This document shows positions 5,357 through 54,039 of a stretch of DNA of 64,000 nt, one piece after another. The notes beneath the pieces were generated by a model. That model saw nothing but the letters and a program-made list of their open reading frames with translations. It had not been told where the DNA came from and did not search any database. Made by a program: the position numbers and the translations under genes. Position 1 is the first letter of the stretch. Every line of letters begins with the position of its first letter. This stretch comes from a virus. Location of the stretch: the IMG/VR virus record IMGVR_UViG_3300032053_004772, positions 22,774 to 86,773 of that record. One strand, given 5' to 3'.

Positions 5357-5366
5357 GGAGTAGATA

Positions 5367-20086: not shown

Positions 20087-20692
20087 ATGGGAAAGATTCT
20101 GTTCATCGGGGCTCACACAGATGACGTGGAATTCGGTTGCGGTGGTACAATCGCAAAGATGATCGAGCGCGGAGAGGAAGTATCTGTCGCTGCTCTCTCT
20201 TGGGGATCCTCTCTGTATCCTGAGATGCACCTAGATCAGGAGTTTCAGAACTCGATGCAGATTTTCGGTGTGAAGGCGACGTTTCTAGGAGACTATCAGA
20301 TTCGTCTCTTTCCACTTAGTCGACATAAGATTCTGCAGCATTTGCTGCTAACTCGAGAGCAGGTGCAGCCGGACGTTGTGTTCTTTCCATCCGTTGTCGA
20401 TATACATCAAGATCATCAGACAGTTTATCAAGAGAGTCTTCGAGCGTTTAAGAGAGTCACACACTTCAACTACGAGTTGTTCTGGAACTGTCCAGACTTT
20501 CACCCTCAGTACTACGTCGAGTTGAGCGAGGAGAACTTCACGACTAAAGTGAGAGCGCTGGAGTGTTACGTCTCACAGAAGAATCGTGACTACTTTGATC
20601 TGCACAAGATTCGGGTGTGGGCTGAGTTTCGAGGAGCACAAGTAGGTAAGCAACTTGCCGAAGCGTTTGAAGTAGGAAAGCTTCTCGGATGA
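20087..20692 (+). CDS. PIG-L/LmbE family deacetylase
   Basis: A 201-residue enzyme with AHTDDVE near residues 8-14 (the family AHPDDE metal/catalytic motif, Pro replaced by Thr) and HQDHQ near residue 106 (the HxDH motif). The family are zinc-dependent N-deacetylases of N-acetylglucosamine-containing lipids and metabolites. It overlaps the ATP-grasp gene by GATGA, and the PHP gene follows, so the three probably act in one pathway. Because they read out of the tail operon before a terminator, expression is probably late. The substrate is unknown. A virion glycan or a wall sugar is possible. Confidence 0.82.
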   Translation: MGKILFIGAHTDDVEFGCGGTIAKMIERGEEVSVAALSWGSSLYPEMHLDQEFQNSMQIFGVKATFLGDYQIRLFPLSRHKILQHLLLTREQVQPDVVFFPSVVDIHQDHQTVYQESLRAFKRVTHFNYELFWNCPDFHPQYYVELSEENFTTKVRALECYVSQKNRDYFDLHKIRVWAEFRGAQVGKQLAEAFEVGKLLG

Positions 20693-21747
20693 AACTGCCT
20701 CGAGTCTTAATCACGGGGGTAGGTGCTCCCGGTACTAGGGGTACGATCTTCTGTCTTCAGAAGAACTTCGATCGGCAGAAGGTGTTTATCCTTGGTACAG
20801 ACTCCGACGTTAGCGCAGTAGGTCGACACTTTGTGGATAGGTTCTTCACGATTCCGTATGCTGAGACTGGAATGCGATATCTGAAAGCTCTGCAGGAGTT
20901 ATGTGAAGAGCATCGAGTTGACGTGATACTTCCTCAGAACACTGCGGAGTTGCTCATCCTTGCCTGTCATCGAGAGTCATTCAAAAGAACTCGCATCTGT
21001 GTTTCTAGCGGTGATGCGATCTGTAAGTCGAACCACAAGATTCGACTGTTACAGGAGTTTCAGAGGGCGAGTCTTCCTTTTCCGACGTACACAGTTGTTA
21101 CAAATGAAGCCGAGTTGATACAGGGTTTAGCCGGATTAAGCTACCCGAGAGAGCAAGTCGTAGTAAAGATTCCAGACGGTTCTGGAGGAAGAGGTGTTCG
21201 AATTATTTCGTCTCGACCTTATAACTGGCACAGTTTCGTGCATGAGAAGCCGAACGCTCTAGAGTGGAACTTAGATCAGCTACTTAAAGTTGCGCGTGAA
21301 GGTTTTCCTTCTCCTCTCTTACTAACAGAGTACCTTCCTGGGAGAGAGTACTCTGTTGACGTGTTTAGAGGACTGAGTACAGAGATTGCGATACCTCGAG
21401 TTCGACTACGAATCCGTAGTGGTATCACGTTTGACACTGAGATCGTTCGGCACGAAGAGATCGAGCGACAGTCTTTGATTGCTGCTCGTGCAATCGATCT
21501 TCGGTACGCGTTCGGCTTTCAGTTTCGAGAGAATGCTCAAGGTAAAGCGCGTGTCATAGAATGCAATCCGAGAGTGCAGGGTACGATGGTAGCCAGTTAC
21601 TTTGCAGGTGCAAACATTCCGTGGATGGCAATACGAGAGGCTCTCGGTCTTACGCAGCATCCAGAGGTTCAGATTCAGACTGCGCGTTTCACTCGATATT
21701 GGGGAGGAGTTGGACTTGTCCACAACGAACGGCCGATCAGTATCTAG
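20689..21747 (+). CDS. ATP-grasp ligase (carbamoyl-phosphate synthase-like)
   Basis: A 352-residue protein with a pre-ATP-grasp Rossmann-like N-terminus (ITGVGAPGTRG near 8-18), a Gly-rich ATP loop (KIPDGSGGRGV near 162), EYLPGREYSVD near 214 and the metal-binding ECNPRVQGT near 288. This is the CarB-like ATP-grasp class that activates a carboxylate and joins it to an amine. Next to a deacetylase that would expose an amine, it could add an amino acid or other acid to a sugar. It overlaps both neighbours. Confidence 0.82.
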   Translation: MKLPRVLITGVGAPGTRGTIFCLQKNFDRQKVFILGTDSDVSAVGRHFVDRFFTIPYAETGMRYLKALQELCEEHRVDVILPQNTAELLILACHRESFKRTRICVSSGDAICKSNHKIRLLQEFQRASLPFPTYTVVTNEAELIQGLAGLSYPREQVVVKIPDGSGGRGVRIISSRPYNWHSFVHEKPNALEWNLDQLLKVAREGFPSPLLLTEYLPGREYSVDVFRGLSTEIAIPRVRLRIRSGITFDTEIVRHEEIERQSLIAARAIDLRYAFGFQFRENAQGKARVIECNPRVQGTMVASYFAGANIPWMAIREALGLTQHPEVQIQTARFTRYWGGVGLVHNERPISI

Positions 21748-22357
21748 CGTTTTCGGTAGGAGATACCTGTTTCATGTACACTCTCAGTTTGCAGATGGAT
21801 CGGCTTCCGTGGAGGACTACCTTCGACTCGCACAAGCGCACGATCTAGAGACCGTCACGATTTTGGAACATGCACGTCGCATACCGTCTTACAGTGTACA
21901 GCGATATGCAGACACCATTCGAGAGACCTCGAATCGGTTAGGGATCAGAGCGCTAGTAGGATTTGAGGTTAAGCTGGATTCGGATGGTTCGTTGGACATC
22001 AACGATGAGACACTGGCTCTCGCGGATGTAGTGGGATTAGCGGTTCACAAGTTTCCGAATGACTTCATGATGTTTATGAAGGCGTTCTCCTCGGTACTAC
22101 GATTGTGCAGCGACAAGATTCGAGTGTGGGTTCATCCGGGACTATGGTTCGTTCGGAGGGGAATTCTCGAGGAGAAGTTTTTGGTGTATACAGCGATGTT
22201 GAATATCGCTGTAAGTGAGGGTTGGTTTATAGAGTACAATCTGAAGTACAACTTGATCCCGAGATCGTGGCGGAAACTTGTACATCGGAGTAAGTTGGTA
22301 ACCGGCGTTGATGCTCACTCTATAGATGATGTAAGAAAGCATATTCATCTACTATAG
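21716..22357 (+). CDS. PHP-domain metal-dependent hydrolase
   Basis: A 213-residue protein with the PHP metal ligands in order: HVHSQFADG (residues about 20-28), EHARR, GFEVKLD, WVHPG and GVDAHS. PHP proteins hydrolyse phosphoesters (histidinol phosphatase, polymerase-associated) or related bonds. The start chosen is TTG 21716 after GGGGAGGAG at 21701-21709, so the gene overlaps the ATP-grasp gene by 32 bases. It ends 53 bases before a strong terminator. It is probably the third enzyme of the PIG-L/ATP-grasp unit. Confidence 0.8.
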   Translation: MSTTNGRSVSSVFGRRYLFHVHSQFADGSASVEDYLRLAQAHDLETVTILEHARRIPSYSVQRYADTIRETSNRLGIRALVGFEVKLDSDGSLDINDETLALADVVGLAVHKFPNDFMMFMKAFSSVLRLCSDKIRVWVHPGLWFVRRGILEEKFLVYTAMLNIAVSEGWFIEYNLKYNLIPRSWRKLVHRSKLVTGVDAHSIDDVRKHIHLL

Positions 22358-22410
22358 CTCTTTATAACTTATCTCTCAGTGGCTTGTACTATTATTACCG
22401 GGAGAAACTC

Positions 22411-22440
22411 AGAGATGTTAACAAACATCTCTGTTTTTTT
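22411..22440 (+). terminator. Intrinsic terminator ending the tail/PIG-L operon
   Basis: A perfect 9-bp stem, AGAGATGTT (22411-22419) with AACATCTCT (22424-22432), closes a 4-base loop and is followed by G and seven T. It lies 53 bases after the PHP gene. Confidence 0.88.
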
Positions 22441-22516
22441 GGTTATCGGGTGAGGGATCGTCTCGGTAATATCTTCGTGGTACAAAAAGTGAATGTGTCG
22501 GGTCGCTCTATTCACC

Positions 22517-22545
22517 TTGAATTGCTAAAGCCAGGGTGTTACTAT
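22517..22545 (+). promoter_or_regulatory. Weaker sigma70-like promoter
   Basis: TTGAAT at 22517-22522 and TACTAT at 22540-22545 are separated by 17 bases. Both deviate from consensus, but the spacing and position before the amidoligase operon fit a second promoter. Confidence 0.35.
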
Positions 22546-22612
22546 GGTAAATATAAATATAGCGGTTTCGATAGAAAACTTAGAAAAAATAAAAATAATT
22601 CTTCTTTTCCTC

Positions 22613-22641
22613 TTGATTTTTCTTTCAATCTATATTATAAT
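22613..22641 (+). promoter_or_regulatory. Strong sigma70-type promoter for the amidoligase operon
   Basis: TTGATT (22613-22618), a 17-base spacer and a perfect TATAAT (22636-22641) lie 38 bases before the amidoligase ATG. The flanks CCTCTTGATTTT and TATATTATAAT recur almost unchanged at 29753-29784, so this is a repeated phage promoter type read by host housekeeping polymerase. It begins the second transcription unit. Confidence 0.85.
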
Positions 22642-22679
22642 ATAATTGTAGACTAAGAAGAAAGAGAAGAGGGAGAGCG

Positions 22680-23567
22680 ATGAAGGTAGAGTTCAACAAA
22701 GATAGGACGTTCGGAGTAGAGTTCGAAGTGATCGGAAACTACGACGCTGCGCGCTATCAAGTGTTGCAAGGGATCAAGAAACTCTATCGGGAAGGGCGCA
22801 TCACTCACGACGTTGAGGATATCGGTTGCTACGAGCACACAGGAAGCGGGAACGTTAAGTGGGTTATTAAGAACGACACCAGCTTACACGGACACGACAG
22901 GGTCGGGTTCGAGGTGGTTACGCCGGTCCTTAAGGGGTTGGAGGGACTGTACGAGCTCGAGCAAGTAGCAAAGGTGCTTAACAAGCACTCGCACATAGAG
23001 CAGTGCTGCGGTGGGCACGTACATCACGGTGTGAGCGATCTCAATAAGCAGGCGTTCAAGAACCTATACGGTCTGATGAAGAAGTACGAGAGAGTGGTGG
23101 ACTACTTCGTAGCACCCAGCCGGAGACGCAATCAGTATTGCAGCCACCTTCCAGAGGCGGACGTGTTTTTCAGAGACACCAGTGCAGAGCGGCTCTATCA
23201 TCAGTACGATGCCGAGCGGTTCTATCGAGCAGTGATTAGCAGGCTCGGGCGGAGAGCAGTGAACTTCAGCTCCTATGCGATCAGAGGAACGATAGAGTTT
23301 CGGCAGCACCAGGGGACGGTGGACTTTGTGAAGATCAAGCAGTGGATCACTCTGACGCAGGCGTTTATTGAGACGGCCAAGCGGAGGAGCAGTGTTCAGT
23401 ATCAGGTGCGCGACGCACTCTCGATCGACAATCTCTTTGCGGATCTCAATTGGGTGAAGGTCTCTGTGACGGACGAGATCAGTGAGGAGATCGTTCAGGC
23501 GCGGACGTTCCTGCGGGAGCGCTATCGGACGTTCAGGCAGGCCGGCGCGACAGAAGCGGTCGCGTAA
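22680..23567 (+). CDS. Amidoligase (COOH-NH2 ligase, glutamine synthetase-like fold)
   Basis: A 295-residue protein with FGVEFEVIG near residues 10-18, GCYEH..GSGNVKWV near 51, FEVVTPVL near 79, GGHVHHG near 105 and TIEFRQHQGT near 203. These are the conserved blocks of the Amidoligase_2 family, which form amide bonds using ATP. It opens the second operon behind the strong promoter and is followed by a small gene and a class II glutamine amidotransferase. That pairing is recurrent in phages and mobile elements and predicted to make small peptides or modify proteins. The substrate is unknown. Confidence 0.8.
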   Translation: MKVEFNKDRTFGVEFEVIGNYDAARYQVLQGIKKLYREGRITHDVEDIGCYEHTGSGNVKWVIKNDTSLHGHDRVGFEVVTPVLKGLEGLYELEQVAKVLNKHSHIEQCCGGHVHHGVSDLNKQAFKNLYGLMKKYERVVDYFVAPSRRRNQYCSHLPEADVFFRDTSAERLYHQYDAERFYRAVISRLGRRAVNFSSYAIRGTIEFRQHQGTVDFVKIKQWITLTQAFIETAKRRSSVQYQVRDALSIDNLFADLNWVKVSVTDEISEEIVQARTFLRERYRTFRQAGATEAVA

Positions 23568-23572
23568 GGAGG

Positions 23573-23809
23573 ATGAAGTTGAAGATTCGGTGGAAAGATC
23601 ATACGATCAAAGGTACGCCAGAGGAGATCGTGCGAACGTTGAGAACGGAGATTGCTTGGGACGCACCAAAGACGGATCAGAGGTATATGAACGAGGTTGC
23701 CGATCGGGTGCTCTATTTGTACGGAATGATGATACCGACCGACGATCCAGAGGAGTTTCTGCAGGCGCTGGCAGCGATCCAAGAGGTGAAAGTGAAGGAG
23801 GACGAGTAG
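23573..23809 (+). CDS. Small protein between amidoligase and amidotransferase
   Basis: A 78-residue acidic helical protein following an AAGGAGG site, with its stop directly before the next ATG. No motif was recognised. Its fixed place between two enzymes suggests a partner subunit, carrier or substrate peptide, but this is inference only. Confidence 0.6.
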   Translation: MKLKIRWKDHTIKGTPEEIVRTLRTEIAWDAPKTDQRYMNEVADRVLYLYGMMIPTDDPEEFLQALAAIQEVKVKEDE

Positions 23810-24565
23810 ATGTGCGGAATCACTGGCTTTGTTAAGACCGCCGATCGAACGTACGCAACTGAGCCGGTGCTGCGCTCCGTGTTTGAGGTGATGCAGATTC
23901 GTGGAGAGCACGCTAGTGGAATCGCTGCGTTGATGGGAAGCAAGAAGAAGCGAGAGATCGGAGTTGCTAAGGGTAACGTTCCGTCGACCGAGTTCGTACA
24001 GAGAGACGAGTGGAAGGAGTTCGTTCCTCGCGCGAACGTGCTGATCGCGCATACGAGATACGCTGTCTACGGGAATCCGTCCGACAACATTAACAACCAT
24101 CCGCACAGCACCGACGACTACAAGTACTCGTTGATCCACAACGGAATAGTGCACGATCGACCTAAGAGCGTTCGAGGGTTGCTTAAGAGCAAATGTGACT
24201 CTGAGATACTCTTACGGTTGCTCGAAAAGAACGGAGTTGTGAAGGGATTCCGAAAGATCGCGCATATGAAGCGTTCCTCTGTAGCAGTGCTAGTGATCAA
24301 GGCCGACACTGGAGTACTTTATGCGTATCGGAACGAACACTCGCCGCTGGTGTACTGCGATCTGACGACCGAGATCGGAGGGTTGCTCTTTGCTAGCACG
24401 GCCGAGTTGATGGTAGAAGGTATTCGAAAGGCCGGATTCGATTTCGGAGATATCGAACGGCGCTGTGCTCCTATAATTCCAAACGTGGTGTACGCGTTCA
24501 CAACTAAGCGCAGGTATCCGAAGACGAAAGTTCTTACGGAGAGCGTTGTTCAGACAGTGACGTAG
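23810..24565 (+). CDS. Class II glutamine amidotransferase
   Basis: A 251-residue protein starting MCGITGFV, with Cys2 as N-terminal nucleophile after Met removal. IRGEHASGIA (residues about 30-39), HTRYAVYGN near 81 and HPHSTDD..LIHNG near 97 match the Ntn-hydrolase glutaminase domain of GlmS/AsnB-type enzymes. No synthetase domain is attached, so it probably supplies ammonia to the amidoligase encoded upstream, or acts as a stand-alone amidohydrolase. Confidence 0.85.
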   Translation: MCGITGFVKTADRTYATEPVLRSVFEVMQIRGEHASGIAALMGSKKKREIGVAKGNVPSTEFVQRDEWKEFVPRANVLIAHTRYAVYGNPSDNINNHPHSTDDYKYSLIHNGIVHDRPKSVRGLLKSKCDSEILLRLLEKNGVVKGFRKIAHMKRSSVAVLVIKADTGVLYAYRNEHSPLVYCDLTTEIGGLLFASTAELMVEGIRKAGFDFGDIERRCAPIIPNVVYAFTTKRRYPKTKVLTESVVQTVT

Positions 24566-30802: not shown

Positions 30803-31462
30803 ATGCGTCGGGTCGTCTTGATTCTGTCGGGTGGAATGGATTCCACGACTCTTCTTGCTGTGTTGAAGTCAGAACACGATGAGGTGCGTACGCTGACGTT
30901 CAACTACGGTTCGAAGCATAACGAACGAGAGAATTACGCCGCGGATTTGCTTTCAACTACGTACGGCGTAGCAAACAATCTGATCTCTCTGCCGTTTATC
31001 GACAAGCTGTTCAGCTCCGATCTATTGAAGAGCGGAGAAGACGTTCCGAGCGGACACTACACCGATGAGTCACAGCGTCGGACAGTAGTGCCTTTTCGAA
31101 ACGGAATCATGCTGTCGATCGCGGTTGGTTTCGCTGAGTCGATTGGTTTCGACTACGTCGCGTTTGCGAATCACGCCGGTGATCACGCGATCTATCCTGA
31201 CTGTAGAGAGAGATTCGTCTCCGCGCTGGATGCGGCCGCACAAGCGGGAACGTATCTTGGAGTGAAGGTGGTCTCTCCGTTCTTGATGAAGACGAAGACG
31301 GACATCGTTCGGATAGGACATCGTATCGGAGTTCCTTATCATCTCACGTACTCATGCTATCGCGGAGGTGTTAAACACTGTGGTACGTGTGGCACGTGTA
31401 CAGAGCGGAAGGAAGCGTTTCGAGATGCCGGCGTGAAGGATCCGACGGAGTATATAGTATGA
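30803..31462 (+). CDS. queC: 7-cyano-7-deazaguanine (preQ0) synthase QueC
   Basis: A 219-residue enzyme with the PP-loop LSGGMDSTT (about 8-16), FNYGSKHNERE near 34, VPFRNG near 96 and a four-cysteine zinc site (CYRGGVKHCGTCGTC, about 188-202). All QueC hallmarks are intact. It converts 7-carboxy-7-deazaguanine to preQ0 using ATP and ammonia. In a phage this normally feeds DNA modification rather than tRNA queuosine. It overlaps the aminotransferase gene by four bases and heads a five-gene cluster ending with a DpdA-like gene. Confidence 0.93.
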   Translation: MRRVVLILSGGMDSTTLLAVLKSEHDEVRTLTFNYGSKHNERENYAADLLSTTYGVANNLISLPFIDKLFSSDLLKSGEDVPSGHYTDESQRRTVVPFRNGIMLSIAVGFAESIGFDYVAFANHAGDHAIYPDCRERFVSALDAAAQAGTYLGVKVVSPFLMKTKTDIVRIGHRIGVPYHLTYSCYRGGVKHCGTCGTCTERKEAFRDAGVKDPTEYIV

Positions 31463-32442
31463 TTCGTTTGCACAAGAACGAGTACTCTGGAGAGTATCCG
31501 GATTCATCGTTTGAAGTGTTAAGACATTACTGCGATGGAACACAACTGAAGAAGCAATTAGCGAAGTACTTCGGAGTGTTGGAGGAGTGGGTCGCTCTGG
31601 AACAAGGAGCGACTCTTGCTCTTGAAAGAATATTCTCGGAGTTTAAGGAGTCTCCGATTCAGATTCCGGCTGACGTGTGGCCGACGTATTTTACGATCTT
31701 AGAACACACTCATAGAAACAAGATCGTGCGTTTGCGTGATGTGTATCTGTCGATTGAGATTACGAGAAGGTTTGTGCAAACTCCTCCACGTCTAACGCCT
31801 CTGATGAGGGATGGATTGTTTGTGATTACCTCTCCAAGTAATCCAGATGGAAGTTTCGTTCCGCAGTCAGAGATTGAGTATCTGTGTAACGAGAAGCGAG
31901 AACTTACTGTGTTGTTGGATATTGCGTATCACGACTACGCAACGACGCCCTACGATATCTCAACGCTGCTGGCACGGCACTCGAATTTGATCCTGGTGTG
32001 GTCGTTCTCAAAGACGTTTGGTTTAGCGGGTGCGAGAGTTGGAGTAATTCTTTGCTCAGATAAAAAATTGCTAGGTAGTCTTTTTCTCTCTCCACTCGGT
32101 ATTAACTCCTATAGTGAACTGCTGTGCTTGCAGGCGTTAGAGAAGCGTGAGTTCTTTGTAGAACAGGTTCAGCGTTTGCGAGGGAGACGCGATCGGTTTA
32201 TCGACACCGTGAATCAGGAGATGACTTCATTTACAGCATACTACTCGGAGGGAAACTTCTGTCTGTTGAAACCACACTCTATGAGATCAGAAGACGCACA
32301 AAGCCGACTGCGCGCGCGAGGTGTAGCGGTCAGACACTTTCCTTCGACGATTTGGGATAAGTATTTGAGAGTAACGATCGGAACCGAAACAGAGATGGTG
32401 TATCTCGTTCATCAGCTGGAGGAGCTAGATGGAAGAGTTTAG
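31459..32442 (+). CDS. PLP-dependent aminotransferase (HisC-like, fold type I)
   Basis: A 327-residue protein beginning MIRLHKNEY like histidinol-phosphate aminotransferases. It has TSPSNPDGSF near 126, the VLLDIAYHDY Asp-pyridine segment near 150, and the lysine motif WSFSKTFGLAGARVG near 181, where Lys carries PLP. It is inserted between QueC and an ArcS-like gene with overlaps on both sides. Aminotransferases are not part of the known preQ0 or archaeosine routes, so it may add or remove an amine on the 7-deazaguanine side chain or an attached group. Serving a separate pathway is possible. Confidence 0.85.
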   Translation: MIRLHKNEYSGEYPDSSFEVLRHYCDGTQLKKQLAKYFGVLEEWVALEQGATLALERIFSEFKESPIQIPADVWPTYFTILEHTHRNKIVRLRDVYLSIEITRRFVQTPPRLTPLMRDGLFVITSPSNPDGSFVPQSEIEYLCNEKRELTVLLDIAYHDYATTPYDISTLLARHSNLILVWSFSKTFGLAGARVGVILCSDKKLLGSLFLSPLGINSYSELLCLQALEKREFFVEQVQRLRGRRDRFIDTVNQEMTSFTAYYSEGNFCLLKPHSMRSEDAQSRLRARGVAVRHFPSTIWDKYLRVTIGTETEMVYLVHQLEELDGRV

Positions 32443-33049
32443 GTATCTCAGGGGTACGAGTCACGAGTGCGTAGACGCGTTCGAGGATCTCTGGTTGAAG
32501 ACGATGCGGAAGTTTCGTCCGATTAGTAAGATCGCGTTGTTCGTGCCGTGTTCGTGGGGAAAACCCTATAGTCAGTCGTACATTCACTTCTTTATCAATC
32601 GAGAGTTACACAAGTTGGGTTTGCTGCATCGGATCGATCGATGGCATGTGTCGAACGCCGGTATCATTCCAGCGTCCGCTGAACTAGATGGTATATCGAA
32701 CGACGTTGGATTCTTTGCATACGATTGGGATTCTCGCTTTCAAACGGAGGAAGAAGAGAAGTATCACGTGCGGAGTACTTCTGAGAGACTATTGATGTGG
32801 AAGTCCTTCGTCGGAAGCAAGTATCCGATCAAGTTTTCTTATCTGCGTCCTGGATCAAAGGGACTTCGAGCAATACAGGCAACACTTTCGGAAGTGACCA
32901 ATCTTGCTCCGAATCCAAACAGACCGAGTGATCTTCCTCCACAGTGTGTTCACGATCCTGATACCGTCTTGATTAGTGCTATCAACTTGCAGTTTTTGGG
33001 AACATCTATCGAGCGCGCTTTGAAGGGAGAAAAGAAGTGGGACGACTGA
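32429..33049 (+). CDS. ArcS/DUF5591-like protein of the 7-deazaguanine cluster
   Basis: A 206-residue protein with FVPCSWGKPYSQSYIH near residues 38-53, HVSNAGIIPA near 73 and FFAYDWD near 95. The PCSxxKPYSxSxxH block is characteristic of the DUF5591 domain of archaeosine synthase. In ArcS this region helps convert preQ0-base to the formamidino group. Here it is encoded between an aminotransferase and a kinase ahead of a DpdA-like gene. It probably acts on preQ0 in DNA or free preQ0. Assignment is by motif memory, not a profile search. Confidence 0.6.
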   Translation: MEEFRYLRGTSHECVDAFEDLWLKTMRKFRPISKIALFVPCSWGKPYSQSYIHFFINRELHKLGLLHRIDRWHVSNAGIIPASAELDGISNDVGFFAYDWDSRFQTEEEEKYHVRSTSERLLMWKSFVGSKYPIKFSYLRPGSKGLRAIQATLSEVTNLAPNPNRPSDLPPQCVHDPDTVLISAINLQFLGTSIERALKGEKKWDD

Positions 33050-33651
33050 TTGCAGTGGAGGGCGCTGATTGCACTGGAAAGAGCATACTCGTGGAGAGAC
33101 TGCTTCAAATGCGACCGGAGTTGTGTCACACGGTTGAAGACCATCCGATCGATACGCACTTAGACGCTGTGGCAGATTGGTACGTGAATCCTGAGGATGA
33201 ACACGTGAAGTTTTATCTATATCTTGCGGAGACAGTGCATCTGAGTGTACAGCATCGGAGTTTGTTACAGAAGTATCCGGGAAAGCATGTCATTCTAGAT
33301 CGTAGTGCTTTTTCGATGCTGGCGTACTCAGAGATGTTTACATTACCGATGTCGAGAGAGTGTGCAGATAAAATCCTTCGGACGTTCATCTCTACGATTC
33401 AGATGCCAGACGTCATTCTGTATCTTTATGCTTTATCGGGTACGATCGAGCGACGATTAAGTGCTCGAGGTGATCGATCGGGAGTTTATGAGAAGAGGGC
33501 TCGGACGGATTCGTCGTTCTGGAATCGCTTACATCTCGCGTATCGAAAGTGGTTCGATCTAACGTCTGTAGCTGTAATACCGATTGATACCGACTCGTTA
33601 AGTATTCCGGACGTTTATAATCAGGTCGTTGCTATTTTGGAGGGTTTATGA
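33037..33651 (+). CDS. Deoxynucleoside monophosphate kinase (thymidylate kinase-like)
   Basis: A 204-residue P-loop kinase with VEGADCTGKS (residues 7-16), ILDRSAFSMLAYSEM near 87 (the DR(Y/S) motif of TMP kinases) and a lid-like ERRLSARGDRS near 142. GTG start overlapping the ArcS-like gene. Its location between two modification genes suggests phosphorylation of a modified or salvaged deoxynucleotide, but plain dTMP phosphorylation is equally possible. Confidence 0.75.
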   Translation: MGRLIAVEGADCTGKSILVERLLQMRPELCHTVEDHPIDTHLDAVADWYVNPEDEHVKFYLYLAETVHLSVQHRSLLQKYPGKHVILDRSAFSMLAYSEMFTLPMSRECADKILRTFISTIQMPDVILYLYALSGTIERRLSARGDRSGVYEKRARTDSSFWNRLHLAYRKWFDLTSVAVIPIDTDSLSIPDVYNQVVAILEGL

Positions 33652-34430
33652 GAGTGTGCTTCATTACTCCTCGGAAATACTTTCGTGAGTTTTGCTCCCG
33701 ATACAGTGACTACTATCTGTTACTCTCTCACTGGATTGAGTCTGAGCGAGACTTGACACCCTTTCGTGATCGTTATGTGATCCTAGATAACGGCGCGTAC
33801 GAGAACGGGAAGCCTCATGAGATCGATCGATACGTTCAACTCATCGAACGCCTTCGACCTGACGAGATTGTTACTCCTGATGTACGCTTTGATGCGCAAG
33901 CTACCATCACAGCAACGTGTCAGTTTCTGAAGGATCATCATGAGTCTCGTTACAAGTATCTAGCGCCGGTACAGGGAACTAACTGGGAGGAGTGGACTCA
34001 CTGCTACCGAACCTTTCTGGACGATCCAAAAGTAGATGTGATCGGGATCACGGATGTACCTGTAGAGAAGACTGTTCTGAGCTACGCATACGATAAACTA
34101 CCAGCAGCGTTCTCTCGCGTGTACGCGATGGAGTACTTGGATCGTTTAGGTCTGCTACAGAAACCTATTCACATTCTGGGATCGGTTGATCCGGCAGAAT
34201 TGCCGTGGCTGCGATACTTCAGACACGCACGAAGTACGGATTCGAAGATCGCGTTCTGGAACGGGGTTTCGAACGATCGATTGCATCCAACCTCCGGTCT
34301 GAGACGAGGTTCGATCAAGATTGAGAGTATGACATGGGATTGGAGTGGTCAACTAACGCTGCGTCAGCGGCGTAATATCTTATACAACATAGCGGTATTT
34401 AAGGCATTAGCCGGAGGAGGCAAAAAATGA
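33648..34430 (+). CDS. dpdA: DpdA-like DNA 7-deazaguanine transglycosylase
   Basis: A 260-residue TIM-barrel-type protein with YVILDNGAYENG (about 44-55), the signature seen in phage DpdA (TGT-like) proteins, PDEIVTPDVRFD near 76, LAPVQGTNW near 107 and an IHILGS strand near 182. DpdA exchanges guanine in DNA for preQ0. It ends the QueC cluster and overlaps its neighbours. The zinc ligands of tRNA TGT are not evident, consistent with phage DpdA forms. A short length relative to bacterial DpdA fits a phage type. Confidence 0.75.
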   Translation: MRVCFITPRKYFREFCSRYSDYYLLLSHWIESERDLTPFRDRYVILDNGAYENGKPHEIDRYVQLIERLRPDEIVTPDVRFDAQATITATCQFLKDHHESRYKYLAPVQGTNWEEWTHCYRTFLDDPKVDVIGITDVPVEKTVLSYAYDKLPAAFSRVYAMEYLDRLGLLQKPIHILGSVDPAELPWLRYFRHARSTDSKIAFWNGVSNDRLHPTSGLRRGSIKIESMTWDWSGQLTLRQRRNILYNIAVFKALAGGGKK

Positions 34431-34951
34431 GCCGAGTGCTCAAGACGGAACCCGTACAGGTGATTCAGTGGTACTGTCCGCAGTGTGGTAACGTGGTTAC
34501 CGCGAAGGACGAGAAATGTCCTCACTGTAACGTGGTGTTCGCTCCGATAGACAATCTGTCGGAAGAGGAGCAGCGTATTCAGGAGATCAAGGACAAGATC
34601 GAGGCCGGACTGAAGGATGGAGCGAAGACTCCTTCTCCAGAAGCGGTTGTGGCAGAGGCTTCCGCTCCCGTGGAAGTACAGACTACTCGTGTGGCGGTAC
34701 CCGCGAAACCTGCTGCGGAGAAGAAAGTACCGGGTGTGTACAAACCGCAGACTGGTACGCGTGTAGCTCTGACGTACGAGAAGCTGCAGGGTGAGGGAGC
34801 TGCGTTCGGAGACATCGTTAAGGAGATGATGAGCAAGTTCTCTCTCGACGAAGCGAAAGCGACTCTTACCGTGAAAACTAACATCGACGAGCTAAAGAAG
34901 GCGCGTCAGCTTCCGATCGTGGAAGAGAACGGTAAATGGCGGATCAAGTAG
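34427..34951 (+). CDS. Zinc-ribbon protein with Pro/Ala linker
   Basis: A 174-residue protein with an N-terminal ribbon CPQCGN..CPHCN (about 17-34), an acidic helix, a Pro/Ala/Val-rich linker (70-105) and a C-terminal helical domain rich in Lys. It overlaps DpdA and dUTPase genes. The layout resembles small DNA-associated adaptor proteins. Function unknown. Confidence 0.6.
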   Translation: MSRVLKTEPVQVIQWYCPQCGNVVTAKDEKCPHCNVVFAPIDNLSEEEQRIQEIKDKIEAGLKDGAKTPSPEAVVAEASAPVEVQTTRVAVPAKPAAEKKVPGVYKPQTGTRVALTYEKLQGEGAAFGDIVKEMMSKFSLDEAKATLTVKTNIDELKKARQLPIVEENGKWRIK

Positions 34952-35379
34952 TTCGATTTAAACTGCTGAGTTCGACCGCGCACGCTCCTACTCGAGCTCA
35001 CGCCGACGATGCCGGTTGGGATCTGTACGCTTCTAGTAATGTCGAGATTGCGTCCTTCTCTTACGGTGAGATACCGTTTGATATCGCTATTGAGCTTCCA
35101 AAACCGTTTGATGGTTGGATCTGGGAAGCGCACATTCGACCGCGCTCTGGTACGCGACGTAAAGGTTTGTTCGCTACCTTCGGTACTATAGATCAAGGGT
35201 ATCGAGGACCACTCAGTGCGATCGTGATTAACATGAATCCGAATCCATTTCTCATTCAAGAAGGTGATCGGATTGCACAACTAGTCGTGGTCGCGATTCC
35301 GACGGTGTTCTTTGAGGCTGCCTTAGCTTTGAGTGAGTCTTTCCGAGGGGAGAGGGGATTCGGAAGTAGTGGCGTATGA
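34936..35379 (+). CDS. dut: dUTP pyrophosphatase
   Basis: A 147-residue protein with all five dUTPase motifs in order: DAGWDLYA, RPRSG, GTIDQGYRGPL, GDRIAQLVV and RGERGFGSSGV. It removes dUTP and supplies dUMP. It overlaps the polymerase gene, whose N-terminus is a uracil glycosylase-like domain, so two adjacent genes guard against uracil in DNA. Trimeric family, length typical. Confidence 0.93.
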   Translation: MADQVVRFKLLSSTAHAPTRAHADDAGWDLYASSNVEIASFSYGEIPFDIAIELPKPFDGWIWEAHIRPRSGTRRKGLFATFGTIDQGYRGPLSAIVINMNPNPFLIQEGDRIAQLVVVAIPTVFFEAALALSESFRGERGFGSSGV

Positions 35380-37823
35380 GAGTACTCAAGAGAGAGTGTA
35401 ACTGCGCTTTGTGCGAGGATAGCGTTTCCAACTCAGGAGTGAGACGCTGTAAGATTGAGGGTACCGGACCGAAGAACGCGAAGGTGATGATTGTCGGTCA
35501 GTGTCCTGGTTCTGATGAAGTGGAACGAGGAGAGAACTTCGTTGGAAGAGCTGGCGAGTTGTTGAACGACATGCTACGAGAGGCTAATATACCTCGAGAA
35601 GAACTGTACTTTGCGAATGTAGTCAAGTGTCGACCGAGTGTGATCTCGGAAACTCGTCGAGTTGATCGAGATCCGAAACCGCAAGAGATTAACGCGTGTC
35701 TTCCGTTGTTGATAGATGAGATACGCACAATTCGTCCTGCCGTGATTGTATCCGTGGGAAACATTCCGATGCGAGTTCTGACCGGAATCTCCGGAGTGAT
35801 GACGTGGCAGACGTGTGTAATGTTTCATCGACTGTTTCAGTGCTGGGTTGTACCGATGATTCATCCAAGTGCGTTATTGCGTTGGGGAGCGACTCAGGGA
35901 TTAGACTTTGATCTATCCGTGATAGCTCTCTCTACAGCTTGGGAGTATCGGGATCGTCGAGTACGAATCACGCGCGTGACTAGACATTTTGTACAAGATG
36001 CGAGTGAGGCTGAGGAGATTGTTGTACAGTGTGTGCAGCACGATGCCTTTGCTTTTGACTTTGAGACGTATCTGAACGGATCGCTTCGTGGATTGGGTCT
36101 ATGTTGGCGTTTCTGTGAAGCATACTATATTCCAGCGAAGTTTTTGACGAGCGCGCTGGTGAGTCGACTTGCAAGAGATGGGCGAGATTCTATGAAGATC
36201 GCTCACAACGTTGCGTTCGATCGAAGTGTTGCTCGATGGACGTGCGGTGTTGAACTGGGTCCGAAGGTCTTCGACACGATGATTGCTCATCATTTGTTAG
36301 AGGAGGAGATGCCGTACGGTCTCAAGGATCTGGAGTGGTTGTATACTGATAAGGGTGGTCGTGCTGACTTGATCAAACCACATTACGGTAAGCCAACTTG
36401 GGACCGATTACCAGAGGATGTTGTTGGTGAGTACTGTTGCGACGATGTGGAGAGCACGTTTCGGCTCTATCATCGATTCAAGAAGGAGCTTGCTCGAGAG
36501 GGGCTTGAGTATCTGTTCGAGAACGTCTCGATGCCGACTACTCGCGTTGTAGAGGAGCTTGAACATAACGGAGTTCCGATCGATGAGAGCGCTATGACTG
36601 CAGTAACAGATCGATGTCTCGAGTTGGAGGAACTCTCTGTAACACGCGTACGAAAGATTGCCGGTGACTTCAACGTTAACTCTGGTCAGCAGTTAGGTGA
36701 CATACTCTACGTGAAATTGAAACTTCCGGAACAGCATACCAAGACAAAGAGGTGGAAGACGGATGGAGAGACGTTAAAGAAGCTGAAACCTCTCGATCGT
36801 TCTGGTATTATCGACGAAATCTTGAATATCAAAAAGCAGAGAAAGATTCTGTCGACGTATATAAAAGGCACTCGAAAAAGGATGCGTAACGGACGAGCAT
36901 ACTACAGTTTCTTGCAACCTGGAACTGTAACGGGAAGACTCTCTAGCGCCTTTCATACCTTTCCGAGGAATGCGGCAATTCGTAGGATTATAGGAGCTTC
37001 TTCGGGGAGGAAACTGATCGATGCAGACTTCGATCAGATTGAGTTGCGTATAGGAGCCTCTCTCTCGGGTGATCCTGAGATGATCAGAGTTTTCCGAGAG
37101 GGCGGAGATATCCACAACGAGGTGGCATGTACTCTCTACGGACTGGAGCCTGGAAGTGAAGTAGACGTTGAGCAGCGAAATACTGCGAAGGGATTTGACT
37201 TCGGTGTTTTCTTCGGGCGAGGAGCTCAGTCGGTTGCTGATGAGATGGGAGTTTCGTTACAAAAAGCACAGGAATGGATTGATCGTTTTGCTCGTCGTTT
37301 TGCAGTGCTGTGGCAGTGGATTGATCAGCAGCATGTGTTTGTTAGGGAGCATTTATACGTGCGAAATCTCTACGGAAGAAGACGTCAGTTGAAGCATGCG
37401 ATAAATCCAGATACGAATATGCAAGCGGAGGCTGAACGACAAGCCGTGAACGCTCCTATTCAGGGTGGCGCAAACGATATAGCGTGTATCGCGTGGGAAC
37501 GAATTCGAGAACGAGCTCAACGTGAAAAGCTAGATGCGAAACTGTGCGGGATTGTACACGACGAGATCTTGGTAGAGACGGACGACGCGAGTGCAGAGTA
37601 CGTAGCTCTGTTAATGAAAGAGGAGATGGAAAAACCGTATCCGAGATTGTTAGTACCTATGACAGCGGACGTTCATATTGTGCAGAACTGGTACGAGCAT
37701 AAGGCATCTAAGACTATTGTGGATCCTACCGATGAGGAACTGCAGGATGACGAAGAGATAGATGGCGTTGATCGAGTTCTTGAATTGGTAGATTGGTCAG
37801 TTGAGCCTCCGGAGGTAATATGA
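35376..37823 (+). CDS. Family A DNA polymerase fused to a uracil-DNA glycosylase domain
   Basis: An 815-residue fusion. Residues 1-185 form a family 4-type UDG domain with VGQCPGSDEVERGENFVG and the MIHPSALLRW motif. Four cysteines (CNCALC..., C26, and C near the second half) could hold a cluster. Residues 205-365 are a DEDD 3'-5' exonuclease (FAFDFETYL, HNVAFDRS, YCCDDVEST). Residues 390-800 are the polymerase with motif A DADFDQIELR near 549, motif B RNTAKGFDFGVFFG near 606 and motif C IVHDEI near 727. It replicates phage DNA and may sense or remove uracil. Overlaps dut and the HAD gene. Confidence 0.9.
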   Translation: MRVLKRECNCALCEDSVSNSGVRRCKIEGTGPKNAKVMIVGQCPGSDEVERGENFVGRAGELLNDMLREANIPREELYFANVVKCRPSVISETRRVDRDPKPQEINACLPLLIDEIRTIRPAVIVSVGNIPMRVLTGISGVMTWQTCVMFHRLFQCWVVPMIHPSALLRWGATQGLDFDLSVIALSTAWEYRDRRVRITRVTRHFVQDASEAEEIVVQCVQHDAFAFDFETYLNGSLRGLGLCWRFCEAYYIPAKFLTSALVSRLARDGRDSMKIAHNVAFDRSVARWTCGVELGPKVFDTMIAHHLLEEEMPYGLKDLEWLYTDKGGRADLIKPHYGKPTWDRLPEDVVGEYCCDDVESTFRLYHRFKKELAREGLEYLFENVSMPTTRVVEELEHNGVPIDESAMTAVTDRCLELEELSVTRVRKIAGDFNVNSGQQLGDILYVKLKLPEQHTKTKRWKTDGETLKKLKPLDRSGIIDEILNIKKQRKILSTYIKGTRKRMRNGRAYYSFLQPGTVTGRLSSAFHTFPRNAAIRRIIGASSGRKLIDADFDQIELRIGASLSGDPEMIRVFREGGDIHNEVACTLYGLEPGSEVDVEQRNTAKGFDFGVFFGRGAQSVADEMGVSLQKAQEWIDRFARRFAVLWQWIDQQHVFVREHLYVRNLYGRRRQLKHAINPDTNMQAEAERQAVNAPIQGGANDIACIAWERIRERAQREKLDAKLCGIVHDEILVETDDASAEYVALLMKEEMEKPYPRLLVPMTADVHIVQNWYEHKASKTIVDPTDEELQDDEEIDGVDRVLELVDWSVEPPEVI

Positions 37824-38452
37824 AGAAAGTGGTCTCATTCGACGGTCACGGAACTCTGTTCGAGGAAGCTCCTGATCACTATCGGAAGATTGCGCAGATG
37901 CTTAACACGGAGGAGAGTACTGTACGAGCAGCTTATTCGCGCATCGTTTCTCATCGTCTTCGAGGATATCCTGAGCTTGTTAGAGATGACATTATTCAGA
38001 CGTTCTGGTTGAGCGTGTATCAAGAGATAGCCGGTTTCGTGACAACATTTCGACAGACGAATCTCGGCAAAATGATTCTCGACTACGCGATGACTAAGGA
38101 AGCGTGGGTTCCGAAACTATTAGGAGTTCGTTTTCTGAAGTATGCGAGTAAGCTGGGTTTTCGCTGCATTCTGTGTTCCGAGTGGGATAGTTGGATCGCT
38201 GCTTTGCTAGAGCACTTCGGTTTGAACAAGTTGTTCGATGAGATGTATATCACAGGTTTGCAGGGTCACGCAAAGTGGACTCCGATGTTTTGGAGTTATG
38301 TGCTGTCTGAGGAAGCTCTCTCTCATCCGTCGCGATTGTTGCACGTCGGAAATGATCCTCTTACAGATGAGAAGATTCCGAGAGGTTTAGGAATTGAGAC
38401 ATTCTCAATACGCGCCTCCTTTATGGAGTTTCGGGTTAAGTTGGAATCGTAA
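37820..38452 (+). CDS. HAD-superfamily protein with altered motif I
   Basis: A 210-residue protein with FDGHGTLF (motif I, Asp7), LCSEWDSW (motif II region near 114) and HVGNDPLTDEKIPRGLG (motif IV, near 174). The second Asp of the usual DxDGT is His9. That Asp is the general acid/base in HAD phosphatases, so the activity may differ or the fold may be used for binding. It overlaps the polymerase by four bases. Confidence 0.75.
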   Translation: MKKVVSFDGHGTLFEEAPDHYRKIAQMLNTEESTVRAAYSRIVSHRLRGYPELVRDDIIQTFWLSVYQEIAGFVTTFRQTNLGKMILDYAMTKEAWVPKLLGVRFLKYASKLGFRCILCSEWDSWIAALLEHFGLNKLFDEMYITGLQGHAKWTPMFWSYVLSEEALSHPSRLLHVGNDPLTDEKIPRGLGIETFSIRASFMEFRVKLES

Positions 38453-44928: not shown

Positions 44929-44966
44929 GCGTCAGCACACGACGAAATCTTTCTCAGGAGGTGTTC

Positions 44967-45668
44967 ATGAAGGAGTACAAGCTTCTCAACCTGTATCTGG
45001 TGGCGTTTGTCGCGATTCTGATGCTGTCGAACATCATCGCTGGCAAGTTGATCCAGATCGGCCCTATCATTCTTACGGCAGCGGTGTTTTTGTTCCCGCT
45101 GAGCTACATCTTCGGTGACGTACTCACCGAGGTGTACGGATATGCTCGCTCGAGACGTATTATCTGGTACGGTTTCGGCGCGAACATTCTTATGTCGCTT
45201 ATCTTCTTGATGGCGATCGTGCTACCGTATCCGCCCTTCTGGAAGGGACAAGAAGCGTTCAAGACCGTGCTCGGTCTCGTGCCGAGATTGGTCCTTGCCT
45301 CACTGGTTGGGTACTGGGTCGGATCATTCGGGAACTCCTGGATTCTCGCTCGAATGAAGGAGTGGATGTTGAAGTGGGATCCACAGTCTAAACATCTGTG
45401 GATGAGAACCATCGCGTCCACGATCGTCGGAGAGGGGATCGACACGATCCTGTTCGGTTTCATCGCGTTCATCGGTTCTATGCCATTCGTCGCCGTTCTC
45501 ACAATGATCGGATGGCAGTGGGTTATGAAGGTCGGGGTGGAGGTCGCTTTCACTCCAGTCACGTATCTAGTGATTCACGCTACCAAGAAAGCCGAGGGAA
45601 TGGATGTGGTCGGTACTGAAACATACTCTCCGTTCCGTTGGTTGGTTCGTGATCGAAAGGAAACGTAA
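44967..45668 (+). CDS. yhhQ: YhhQ-family queuosine precursor transporter
   Basis: A 233-residue membrane protein with about six helices (near 8-28, 33-54, 66-88, 105-125, 155-178 and 183-205), and the family segments SNIIAGKL, FPLSYIFGDVLTEVYGY, GEGIDTILF and KVGVEVAFTP. YhhQ proteins import preQ0/preQ1. ATG 44967 is chosen six bases after AGGAGG. In a phage with queC and a dpdA-like gene it would supply 7-deazaguanine precursor for DNA modification. A hairpin and a tRNA-like element follow. Confidence 0.88.
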   Translation: MKEYKLLNLYLVAFVAILMLSNIIAGKLIQIGPIILTAAVFLFPLSYIFGDVLTEVYGYARSRRIIWYGFGANILMSLIFLMAIVLPYPPFWKGQEAFKTVLGLVPRLVLASLVGYWVGSFGNSWILARMKEWMLKWDPQSKHLWMRTIASTIVGEGIDTILFGFIAFIGSMPFVAVLTMIGWQWVMKVGVEVAFTPVTYLVIHATKKAEGMDVVGTETYSPFRWLVRDRKET

Positions 45669-45779: not shown

Positions 45780-46067
45780 ATGATACAAAGAAATCAATTG
45801 TCTAATCTGGAGCTGTCTCGCGCCCTGAGAGAAGTTGATCACAAGCTCGACTTTCGTCTTAGAGAGAAGGGAAGTGGAACCTACGCTGGTCCTCATGAGT
45901 GCTACGGTATTATAGCGGAGGAGTTTAATAAAGAACTGTTAGAAGCTCTTCACGAGAACGATCCGAAGAAGTTTCGCAAGGAACTGTTAGATATCGCGGT
46001 TGCGTGTGTGATCGGAATGGCGTCTATGCTTCCGACGGATACGCCTAGCGAAGGAACTCCTTCGTGA
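45780..46067 (+). CDS. MazG-like all-alpha nucleotide pyrophosphohydrolase
   Basis: A 95-residue helical protein with HECYGIIAEEFNKELLEAL (about 36-54) and FRKELLDIAVAC (about 62-73). The EExxxE...ExxD spacing matches the metal site of MazG-like NTP pyrophosphohydrolases. ATG 45780 starts just after the tRNA-like element, with no obvious ribosome site. It could degrade (p)ppGpp or modified dNTPs. Overlaps the DUF1643 gene. Confidence 0.55.
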   Translation: MIQRNQLSNLELSRALREVDHKLDFRLREKGSGTYAGPHECYGIIAEEFNKELLEALHENDPKKFRKELLDIAVACVIGMASMLPTDTPSEGTPS

Positions 46068-46549
46068 TTCAGTCGGCCGTTATTAGTGAAGACGGTCGTT
46101 ATCGCTACAGTCTGACTAGACGATGGTACGATCGTCCTCCTTTGGTGTTTTGTATGTTGAATCCTTCGACTGCAGATGCGGAGCGAGATGATCCGACTAT
46201 CAGACGTTGCATCAACTTCGCAAAACGAGAGAATGCCGGAGGAATCGAGATTGTAAATCTGATGGCATATCGAGCTACTAGTCCTGCTGATTGTCTTCAA
46301 CAGTTGGATCCCGTAGGACCTGAGAACTACGACTATCTGGAGCGAGCTGCTAGACTTACGTGGAGTGTGATATGCGCCTGGGGAGCGAGAGCTCCAGACT
46401 GGATTGTGAAACGAGGAGTTCTTCATCTTAGGGGTCTGGTTGCGGGTTGTCCTCAACTGTCGTGCTTTGGTACGACTAAGGATGGATGTCCTCGACATCC
46501 TCTCTATCTTCGTAGCGATCAACCTCTTGTAGAGTGGAGACCTGTATGA
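46064..46549 (+). CDS. DUF1643 family protein
   Basis: A 161-residue protein from GTG 46064. FCMLNPSTADAERDDPTIRRC (start near 29) with the LNPSTAD core, NLMAYRATSP near 64 and WGARAP near 107 are the conserved blocks of DUF1643, a small family common in phages and bacteria whose role is not known. Overlaps recA. Confidence 0.8.
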   Translation: MIQSAVISEDGRYRYSLTRRWYDRPPLVFCMLNPSTADAERDDPTIRRCINFAKRENAGGIEIVNLMAYRATSPADCLQQLDPVGPENYDYLERAARLTWSVICAWGARAPDWIVKRGVLHLRGLVAGCPQLSCFGTTKDGCPRHPLYLRSDQPLVEWRPV

Positions 46550-52923: not shown

Positions 52924-53216
52924 CAATACAAGGAAAGGTAAAACTCTCCGTGAAGATCGTGCACAAGGACTTTCAGGAATGTGATGTTTGGTGTCCTGTG
53001 TGCGGTCATGAGATGGCTCCGGAGACAGATATGTTCGAGAATCGGTATCGCGCTTACATCTGTATGCACGATGGTACACAGTTGTACGTTGTAGTGTACA
53101 GGAGGAAACCAAGTGCCAAAGGTTGGATTGGTGGGTCTGGGGAACATGGGAAAGGTACACTATCGTATCTTGCAGCAGCAACAGCGGGTGTGGAATCTCG
53201 AGTTACGAGTCTGTGA
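52785..53216 (+). CDS. Small zinc-binding hypothetical protein
   Basis: A 143-residue protein after AGGGAG, with CPVCGHEM near 69 and a later Cys near 89 that may bind zinc. It overlaps the oxidoreductase gene by 104 bases; its Ser/Gly/Thr-rich last 30 residues are doubtful. Unknown role. Confidence 0.45.
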   Translation: MVTFLWDTQHHHVVQENTARELERWRSSRGNFYWKNDEFSIITRIVTIQGKVKLSVKIVHKDFQECDVWCPVCGHEMAPETDMFENRYRAYICMHDGTQLYVVVYRRKPSAKGWIGGSGEHGKGTLSYLAAATAGVESRVTSL

Positions 53217-54039
53217 TCCGTGCGTCTCTGATCCGTTGATCGCGAAGTCAGATTGGATGTCGTACGAAGATCTTCTGAGTTGGGCTGAGGTGATCATCTT
53301 AGCGACTCCGACGGATACTCACGTGCAACTCGCGCAGCAAGCTGTAGATTGCGGACACTCTGTTTTTGTAGAGAAGCCACTAGCGTTCTCTCTTAAAGAG
53401 GCGAAGAAGTTGAAGTTAAAGGATTCTTCTATCGTTGTAGTGGGATATGTGGAGCGGTTCAGCGCGATCGTTCAAGAGCTGCGAAGGTTGTTGAGGCTTA
53501 CCGCTCGTACTAACGATCTTCCGCTCTTCATCACAACTTCCAGAGTCAATAACGTAGCAGTTCATAGAGCAGAGGGATTGTTGATAGATCTCGGTGTTCA
53601 TGATTTCGATCTGATCACTCATCTGTTTGGAGATCCGAGTTGGATCGACCGAGCGTTAGTTCTTACTTCGAATGGTATTGATGTGTTTGCTAGCGTTGAT
53701 CTGCGACTCGATGCGAGTCTGAGCGTGAACACGAGACTGTCGTGGATCGATGTATCGAAAGCGAGACAGATCTGTGTGTACTCGAAGGACTCTGTGATCC
53801 AGACCGATCTGCTGAATTCTGAGATCGTGTGGTTCGATCGACAGAAGCGCTGCGAGCGATATCGGTGGCAAGCTCGAGGTGGAGAACCAGTGTTAGCTGA
53901 GTTGGAGATGTTCTTTCACTTGGTTAATCGCGGTGGAGAGCGTCCACCAGATGATCAGTTAGGTTTGAAGTCTCTCGCGGTTGCAGATGCCGTACGGATA
54001 GCTCGCGACGGATACGCTACGAGGATTCAATATGAATGA
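53113..54039 (+). CDS. Gfo/Idh/MocA oxidoreductase (WbpB-like)
   Basis: A 308-residue NAD(P)-dependent enzyme from GTG 53113, after AGGAGG at 53100. VGLGNMGKVHYRIL (5-18) is the dinucleotide fold, LATPTDTHVQLA near 58, VFVEKPLAFS near 80 has the EKP lysine, and DLGVHDFDL near 158 the substrate site. Followed by a WbpD-type acyltransferase with an eight-base overlap. In the UDP-ManNAc3NAcA route this enzyme type oxidises C3 before amination. Other sugar oxidations are possible. Confidence 0.82.
   Translation: MPKVGLVGLGNMGKVHYRILQQQQRVWNLELRVCDPCVSDPLIAKSDWMSYEDLLSWAEVIILATPTDTHVQLAQQAVDCGHSVFVEKPLAFSLKEAKKLKLKDSSIVVVGYVERFSAIVQELRRLLRLTARTNDLPLFITTSRVNNVAVHRAEGLLIDLGVHDFDLITHLFGDPSWIDRALVLTSNGIDVFASVDLRLDASLSVNTRLSWIDVSKARQICVYSKDSVIQTDLLNSEIVWFDRQKRCERYRWQARGGEPVLAELEMFFHLVNRGGERPPDDQLGLKSLAVADAVRIARDGYATRIQYE

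Follow-up and report, generated by a model that had tools for sequence, protein, structure and literature searches.

The 64,000-nucleotide window analyzed here, which comprises bases 22774 to 86773 of the 86,773-b viral record IMGVR_UViG_3300032053_004772, carries at positions 30803 to 34430 a cluster of five genes. They encode, in this order, the 7-cyano-7-deazaguanine (preQ0) synthase QueC, a pyridoxal phosphate (PLP)-dependent aminotransferase, a stand-alone core of the ArcS protein, a P-loop kinase, and a candidate guanine transglycosylase of the DpdA type. In its core, this cluster is a phage deazaguanine system of a type already known, and the aminotransferase-ArcS module appears to be its new part. 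The most far-reaching reading, to which we assign a probability of roughly 0.3, comprises both a product and a route. The product would be a new class of DNA base, 2′-deoxyarchaeosine (dG+) whose N substituent is an amino-alcohol (serinol or ethanolamine, for example) or another small amine. Its synthesis would rely on a module that recruited two PLP enzyme families in different phages and, in the lineage of the window, would proceed on nucleotides, by base exchange in dGMP and with the help of a dedicated kinase, rather than on finished DNA. For the more general proposal that an amine-derived side chain is attached to deazaguanine by the ArcS core, the odds appear to be about even. About eight 7-deazaguanine derivatives are known from phage DNA, and to our knowledge, none of them is formed by coupling the preQ0 nitrile to an organic amine.

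All five open reading frames, which an earlier note on this DNA had described as linked and overlapping, are present on the plus strand, with overlaps between consecutive genes of 4 to 14 bp. An exact 127-bp repeat is common to both ends of the record, which is therefore a circular assembly.

The aminotransferase and ArcS genes behave as one unit, because both are jointly missing at the queC-kinase junction of the related phage contig L020. The products of that contig are 55% (QueC), 46% (PolA), 44% (DpdA), 39% (kinase), and 36% (zinc ribbon) identical to those of the window, and its genes follow the order helix-turn-helix protein, small open reading frame, queC, kinase, dpdA, zinc ribbon, and DNA polymerase with a uracil-DNA glycosylase (UDG)-like domain. 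The gap between queC and the kinase gene is only six bases long, and exactly these two genes of the window are lacking at that site. Gain of the pair in the window lineage and its loss in L020 are both possible. The dUTPase, encoded further down the locus, was also not found in L020.

A similar pair was found in five other phage records, in which the gene directly downstream of that for an aminotransferase encodes an ArcS core, either within a deazaguanine cluster or next to one. These are the near-identical Synechococcus phages Yong-L2-223 and Ssp-JY38 (L002 and L004) and three IMG/VR contigs (L003, L018, and L019). Their ArcS cores belong to the same clade as that of the window, and they comprise all the other phage loci found with this clade, so that the pairing holds for every one of them. 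The partner aminotransferases in all five belong to class III (PF00202 and relatives), a PLP family different from the class I/II of the window enzyme, and the ArcS core carries an N-terminally fused HAD domain, whose DLDGTLA motif has the normal form. The three IMG/VR contigs share the gene order queE, queC, aminotransferase, HAD-ArcS, queD, folE, and then dpdA. The latter encodes an enzyme of the type found in Escherichia coli phage 9g; the DpdA of L018 is 70% identical to that of 9g and 63% identical to that of phage CAjan. In the Synechococcus phages, the genes for the sliding clamp and the polymerase precede the pair, which lies ∼3 to 4 kb beyond the que genes and dpdA. Both clades, that of ArcS and that of the class III enzymes, are rare in phages: of 50,697 phage records, only these two Synechococcus phages yielded them, compared to 338 records with QueC. 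The earlier note had suggested a new side chain on 7-deazaguanine, which is the best-supported reading of the locus, given that the pair is present or absent as a unit and recurs with a second aminotransferase family.

The 206-aa product of the third gene shows a weak match to DUF5591/ArcS (E value of 8e-5) and matches exactly the ArcS motif PC-x3-KPY-x2-S-x2-H (PCSWGKPYSQSYIH); judging from its length and score, it is a homologous ArcS core and not an ArcS. All 22 hits confirmed among 84,980 prokaryote genomes were archaeal. Alignment-based scans repeatedly yielded the same loci, and a scan of viral contigs with the window protein as a single query returned no relatives. In a tree of 28 ArcS cores, the window protein and four other aminotransferase-paired phage rows formed a single branch (support, 100/99), which was well apart from the archaeal cores in a tree with long branches. 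The position preceding the motif His/Trp holds Thr in 20 of the 21 archaeal cores and in Sulfolobus virus STSV1 but Ile in all five aminotransferase-paired phage rows, and a His that is invariant in all 21 archaeal cores is replaced by Asp in the same five. The Cys, Lys-Pro-Tyr, Ser, and His residues of the ArcS motif are retained in these phage cores. Since the Thr-to-Ile and His-to-Asp changes near the conserved motif are common to all aminotransferase-paired cores, they suggest an amine other than lysine. The AlphaFold2 model of the ArcS core, built from 4 sequences, was poor (pLDDT of 53) and had no significant match in the Protein Data Bank (PDB). In STSV1 (ORF18-ORF19; L015, positions 7121 to 8462), a gene similar to those for tRNA-guanine transglycosylases (TGT) overlaps a gene for an ArcS core with an archaeal-type motif that keeps the Thr residue, which raises the possibility that archaeal viruses convert preQ0 of the host to bases of the dG+ type.

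The aminotransferase gene probably starts with the ATG at position 31459, which forms an ATGA overlap with the queC stop codon. Its product matches PF00155 (E value of 6e-30) and scores 144 bits against TIGR01141, below the 276-bit HisC cutoff, and can be assigned to the HisC/CobD-like class I/II enzymes of fold type I, not to HisC itself by the curated cutoff. In alignment to HisC structures, the PLP-site residues Lys185, Asp154, Asn128, and Arg193 are kept, and Arg292 and Arg304 align with two HisC arginines, which bind the substrate anion. Conservation of these two arginines fits a substrate that bears a phosphate or a carboxylate. The enzyme is <30% identical to its best phage and plasmid matches, and a single-protein scan of viral contigs returned no relatives. 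According to the earlier note, it fits no known route; it is encoded within a 7-deazaguanine DNA modification cluster and stands outside the routes checked.

The phage encodes the whole preQ0 pathway, because folE, queD, and queE are found elsewhere in the record (positions 4183 to 5662, upstream of the window) and queC is in the window. QueC (183 bits against TIGR00364, curated cutoff of 150 bits; PF06508 E value of 6e-61) and FolE score above their cutoffs; QueD and QueE are the best matches, though below theirs (73 versus 89 bits and 114 versus 240 bits, respectively). The YhhQ-family preQ0/preQ1 transporter that the earlier note had placed at 45 kb is indeed encoded there and scores 110.7 bits against TIGR00697, above the 51-bit cutoff (PF02592 E value of 6.5e-50). 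A DUF1643 protein (E value of 1e-38) is encoded near the transporter gene, at 46064 to 46549. QueF was not found in the phage record, and a Gat-QueC query matched only the window QueC, a 219-aa protein that lacks the Gat domain. No route to dG+ by Gat-QueC or QueF/QueF-L was recognized in this phage.

The 260-aa DpdA-like protein, whose gene start overlaps the kinase stop codon as ATGA, has no usable Pfam match. Its relative in Flavobacterium phage immuto, deposited as a DNA guanine transglycosylase, was retrieved by tblastn with an E value of 5e-9, and homologs with 22 to 26% identity are encoded by Cellulophaga phage phiST, immuto, Bacillus phage BSP7, Weizmannia phage Youna2, Chryseobacterium phage MA9V-3, and Campylobacter phages. 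In the Cellulophaga, Flavobacterium, Bacillus, Weizmannia, and Chryseobacterium phages, the homologs sit in deazaguanine clusters, among folE/queD/queE/queC genes. We refer to this enzyme as DpdA3-type. Asp47, His175, Gly178, and Asp198 are invariant across eight DpdA3-type proteins, and a profile comparison pairs Asp47 and Asp198, the putative catalytic residues, with conserved Asp residues of the 9g-type DpdA at an E value of 0.0014 and a probability of only 17%. Seven DpdA3-type proteins were too divergent for an alignment-based scan. The AlphaFold2 model, built from 2 sequences, was poor (pLDDT of 54). A Foldseek search of a viral library with this low-confidence model returned phiST first and then several proteins annotated as “queuine tRNA-ribosyltransferase” (E value of 5e-4); only generic barrel enzymes were matched in the PDB.

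The kinase matches PF02223 (E value of 8e-9), PF01712 (1e-8), and PHROG 761 (1.5e-21). In all eight DpdA3-type lineages, which include those of the window and L020, a P-loop kinase, not always of the same family, is encoded adjacent to the DpdA3-type gene (usually) or within 3 kb of it. By the same rule, no such kinase was found near the genes for other DpdA types, for which eight loci were compared: six from one broad lineage plus those of Vibrio phage nt-1 and STSV1. This association provides a hint that the DpdA3-type enzyme works on nucleotides, with the kinase contributing to the synthesis of the modified dNTP. In the literature, deazaguanine is described as being inserted at the level of DNA (PMC12783734).

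These data can be combined into the following scheme. The phage would make preQ0 via FolE, QueD, QueE, and QueC, all identified by sequence family, and the DpdA3-type transglycosylase would swap guanine for 7-deazaguanine in deoxynucleotides or DNA. If it acts at the nucleotide level, the kinase could phosphorylate the modified dNMP, which is a weaker part of the scheme. The aminotransferase would provide a small primary amine, which is most likely the phosphate of an amino-alcohol or an amino-sugar. Its precursor would be either a keto-phosphate (dihydroxyacetone phosphate, for instance) or a phospho-amino acid, which the enzyme would decarboxylate. The stand-alone ArcS core would then couple this amine to the nitrile of preQ0, in analogy to the addition of lysine by archaeal ArcS. 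The archaeal enzyme transfers lysine to preQ0 in tRNA, as well as to the preQ0 nucleoside and its 5′-monophosphate (PMC11298593). As no RaSEA that could cleave the adduct was found, the end product in DNA would be an N-substituted 2′-deoxyarchaeosine, an amidine, presumably serving restriction resistance.

A precedent for such chemistry is capsule decoration in Campylobacter jejuni, where Cj1437 converts dihydroxyacetone phosphate to (S)-serinol phosphate and Cj1436 converts phosphoserine to ethanolamine phosphate. Coupling of the amine by Cj1438 follows, after which the HAD enzyme Cj1435 strips off the phosphate (PMC11800397). Dihydroxyacetone phosphate is also the substrate of a second aminotransferase, RtxA (PMC3222319). 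By analogy, fusion of a HAD domain to the ArcS core in the other phages fits what the capsule logic predicts.

Several observations weigh against this scheme. The ArcS core scores 18 bits against the curated ArcS cutoff of 440 bits and is only 206 aa long. ArcS of Thermococcus kodakarensis has to form a complex with RaSEA in order to transfer lysine (PMC11298593), and no RaSEA was found in the phage, the best tblastn hit (E value of 0.013) being unconvincing. Two different aminotransferase families need not yield the same amine. The DpdA-like protein should be regarded as a candidate, since its assignment relies on remote homologs and on a structural model of low confidence. Finally, the HAD protein encoded in the window at 37820 to 38452, after polA, has a DGHGT nucleophile motif in which the second Asp is replaced, and showed no significant similarity to the fused HAD domains of the other phages. 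These features weaken its candidacy for the missing phosphatase, a role that is doubtful on sequence grounds, and do not support its inclusion in the module. An RpiB-like gene that follows the cyanophage ArcS gene and might have marked a source of sugar phosphate was set aside, as queD directly follows ArcS in L003, L018, and L019.

Other interpretations of the module were considered. The DNA could contain plain dG+, if the ArcS core used ammonia or amino-acid nitrogen and the PLP enzyme replaced RaSEA, by supplying the nitrogen or by releasing archaeosine (G+) from an amino-acid adduct. ArcS of Methanocaldococcus jannaschii reportedly accepts ammonium, asparagine, or glutamine (PMC11298593), phage nt-1, which has an ArcS homolog, contains some dG+ (PMC6884629), and the PLP enzyme occupies the place of archaeal RaSEA, a protein that forms fusions with ArcS in archaea of the DPANN group and in others. 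Nevertheless, nitrogen donation needs no dedicated aminotransferase, PLP-based release would require the amidine at a beta or gamma carbon, which is unusual for these families, and the fused HAD domain of the other phages would be left without a role, so that this outcome is rather unlikely. Lysine, the known donor of archaeal ArcS (PMC11298593), or another diamino acid could instead be added to preQ0, with the PLP enzyme transaminating or decarboxylating the free alpha-amino group of the adduct, and the failure to find RaSEA in the phage is consistent with such processing. The substitutions of Thr and His in all aminotransferase-paired cores suggest a non-lysine donor, a large base- or nucleotide-bound substrate would be unusual for both HisC-like and class III enzymes, and the HAD fusion would again be unexplained; this route seems quite improbable.

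The aminotransferase and the ArcS core might also leave the DNA base unaltered, being inactive or having another metabolic role, in which case the DNA would hold the deoxynucleoside of preQ0 (dPreQ0) or 2′-deoxy-7-amido-7-deazaguanosine (dADG), as in related phages. L020 manages without both genes, and no such pair was identified in some DpdA3-type relatives. Retention of the active-site residues in both proteins and recurrence of the pair, with an aminotransferase from a second family, in the vicinity of queC, queD, and folE make such a lack of effect on the base improbable. A target other than DNA, be it tRNA, a free nucleotide, or a protein, would be in line with the membership of DpdA in the TGT superfamily and with the reported deazaguanylation of a protein by a TGT-like enzyme in type IV CBASS (PMC11996544). 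The adjoining genes code for a deoxynucleotide-type kinase, a dUTPase, and a DNA polymerase, and the homologs are annotated as, or linked to, phage DNA modification genes, which leaves very little room for a non-DNA target. Formation of an N-substituted dG+ in DNA is the reading preferred here.

Compared to the earlier note, the current analysis identified the ArcS-like gene as the partner of the aminotransferase, completed the preQ0 pathway elsewhere in the record, and revealed that a kinase accompanies this type of DpdA.

Genes of the modification cluster and selected downstream features of the window (all on the plus strand)
Feature	Positions	Strand	Basis or remarks
queC, preQ0 synthase, 219 aa	30803..31462	+	TIGR00364, PF06508
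PLP-dependent HisC/CobD-like aminotransferase, 327 aa	31459..32442	+	PF00155, TIGR01141
Stand-alone ArcS/DUF5591 core, 206 aa	32429..33049	+	DUF5591, motif PCSWGKPYSQSYIH
P-loop deoxynucleotide kinase, thymidylate kinase/dNK-like, 204 aa	33037..33651	+	GTG start; PF02223, PF01712, PHROG 761
DpdA-like (DpdA3-type) guanine transglycosylase candidate, 260 aa	33648..34430	+	Homologs in deazaguanine clusters
Zinc-ribbon protein	34427..34951	+	Overlaps dpdA; adjoins dpdA in L020 too (36% identity)
dUTPase	34936..35379	+	PF00692, E value of 1.5e-25
UDG-like N-terminal domain fused to family A DNA polymerase	35376..37823	+	Sequence reading
HAD-superfamily protein	37820..38452	+	PF00702, TIGR02252; overlaps polA
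YhhQ-family preQ0/preQ1 transporter	44961..45668	+	TIGR00697, PF02592

Outside the five-gene cluster, the fusion of a UDG-like domain with a family A polymerase, which adjoins the dUTPase in the window, is also encoded in L020 (positions 3436 to 5328; 46% identity). Positions 20087 to 24565 consecutively encode a PIG-L deacetylase, a PylC-like/ATP-grasp_Ter ligase, a PHP protein, an Amidoligase_2 protein, and a class II glutamine amidotransferase, which constitute an amide-forming cluster. Genes for a Gfo/Idh dehydrogenase, a hexapeptide acetyltransferase, a UDP-sugar dehydrogenase, a DegT aminotransferase, an epimerase, and glycosyltransferases are found at 53113 to 54511 and 56058 to 57362 of the window and at 14941 to 19827 of L011; the phage seems to make and transfer a sugar of the acetamido-uronic type. 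The Gfo/Idh gene (53113 to 54039) had been considered as a potential feeder of the cluster aminotransferase and was dropped, given that the UDP-sugar dehydrogenase, the acetyltransferase, and the DegT aminotransferase resemble a nucleotide-sugar pathway.

If the proposed chemistry is correct, the module would represent a natural means of hanging different amines on DNA guanine and would help explain the role of phage ArcS proteins, which was left open previously (PMC6884629). The kinase link would challenge the view of deazaguanine insertion as an always postreplicative process. The module would be amenable to direct testing in a cultivated cyanophage. No description of it was found in the full-text literature since 2022, in a search that did not cover the 2023 paper by Cui et al. 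on new phage deazaguanines.

Among the known systems, E. coli phages CAjan and 9g (Queuovirinae; dPreQ0/dG+, DpdA1) similarly encode FolE, QueD, QueE, QueC, and a DpdA. Phage 9g differs in having a long (Gat-type) QueC for dG+, with neither an aminotransferase nor ArcS annotated (PMC6884629), and CAjan has a transporter and small genes in the corresponding part of the cluster; unlike both, the window encodes a kinase along with an enzyme of the DpdA3 type. The deazaguanine cluster of Vibrio phage nt-1 likewise includes an ArcS core, and the DNA of this phage has been reported to contain dPreQ0, dADG, and dG+ (PMC6884629). In contrast to the window, the nt-1 cluster has no annotated aminotransferase, the ArcS motif is changed to RPY, and the transglycosylase is a DpdA2. 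Archaeal ArcS with RaSEA has the same DUF5591 core and PC-x3-KPY-x2-S-x2-H motif and acts on the preQ0 nitrile (PMC11298593), whereas the window encodes the 206-aa core alone, without RaSEA, with the Thr-to-Ile and His-to-Asp changes, and paired with an aminotransferase. Cellulophaga phage phiST, Flavobacterium phage immuto, the Campylobacter CP220 group, and Bacillus phage BSP7 all encode a homolog of the window DpdA and, near it, a P-loop kinase but have no aminotransferase or ArcS core annotated at these loci; in immuto, QueF and a formyltransferase are found instead. The serinol and ethanolamine decoration of the C. jejuni capsule likewise combines a PLP enzyme, an amine-coupling enzyme, and a HAD phosphatase, but it employs an ATP-dependent ligase to target a polysaccharide carboxylate, not the nitrile of a DNA base (PMC11800397). 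Finally, in the hypermodification of 5-carboxymethylcytosine by CmoX/CmoY, a phage base with a reactive handle is also ligated to an amine, glycine (PMC12783734), although the handle is a cytosine carboxylate, the ligase is ATP dependent, and the enzymes are unrelated to those described here.

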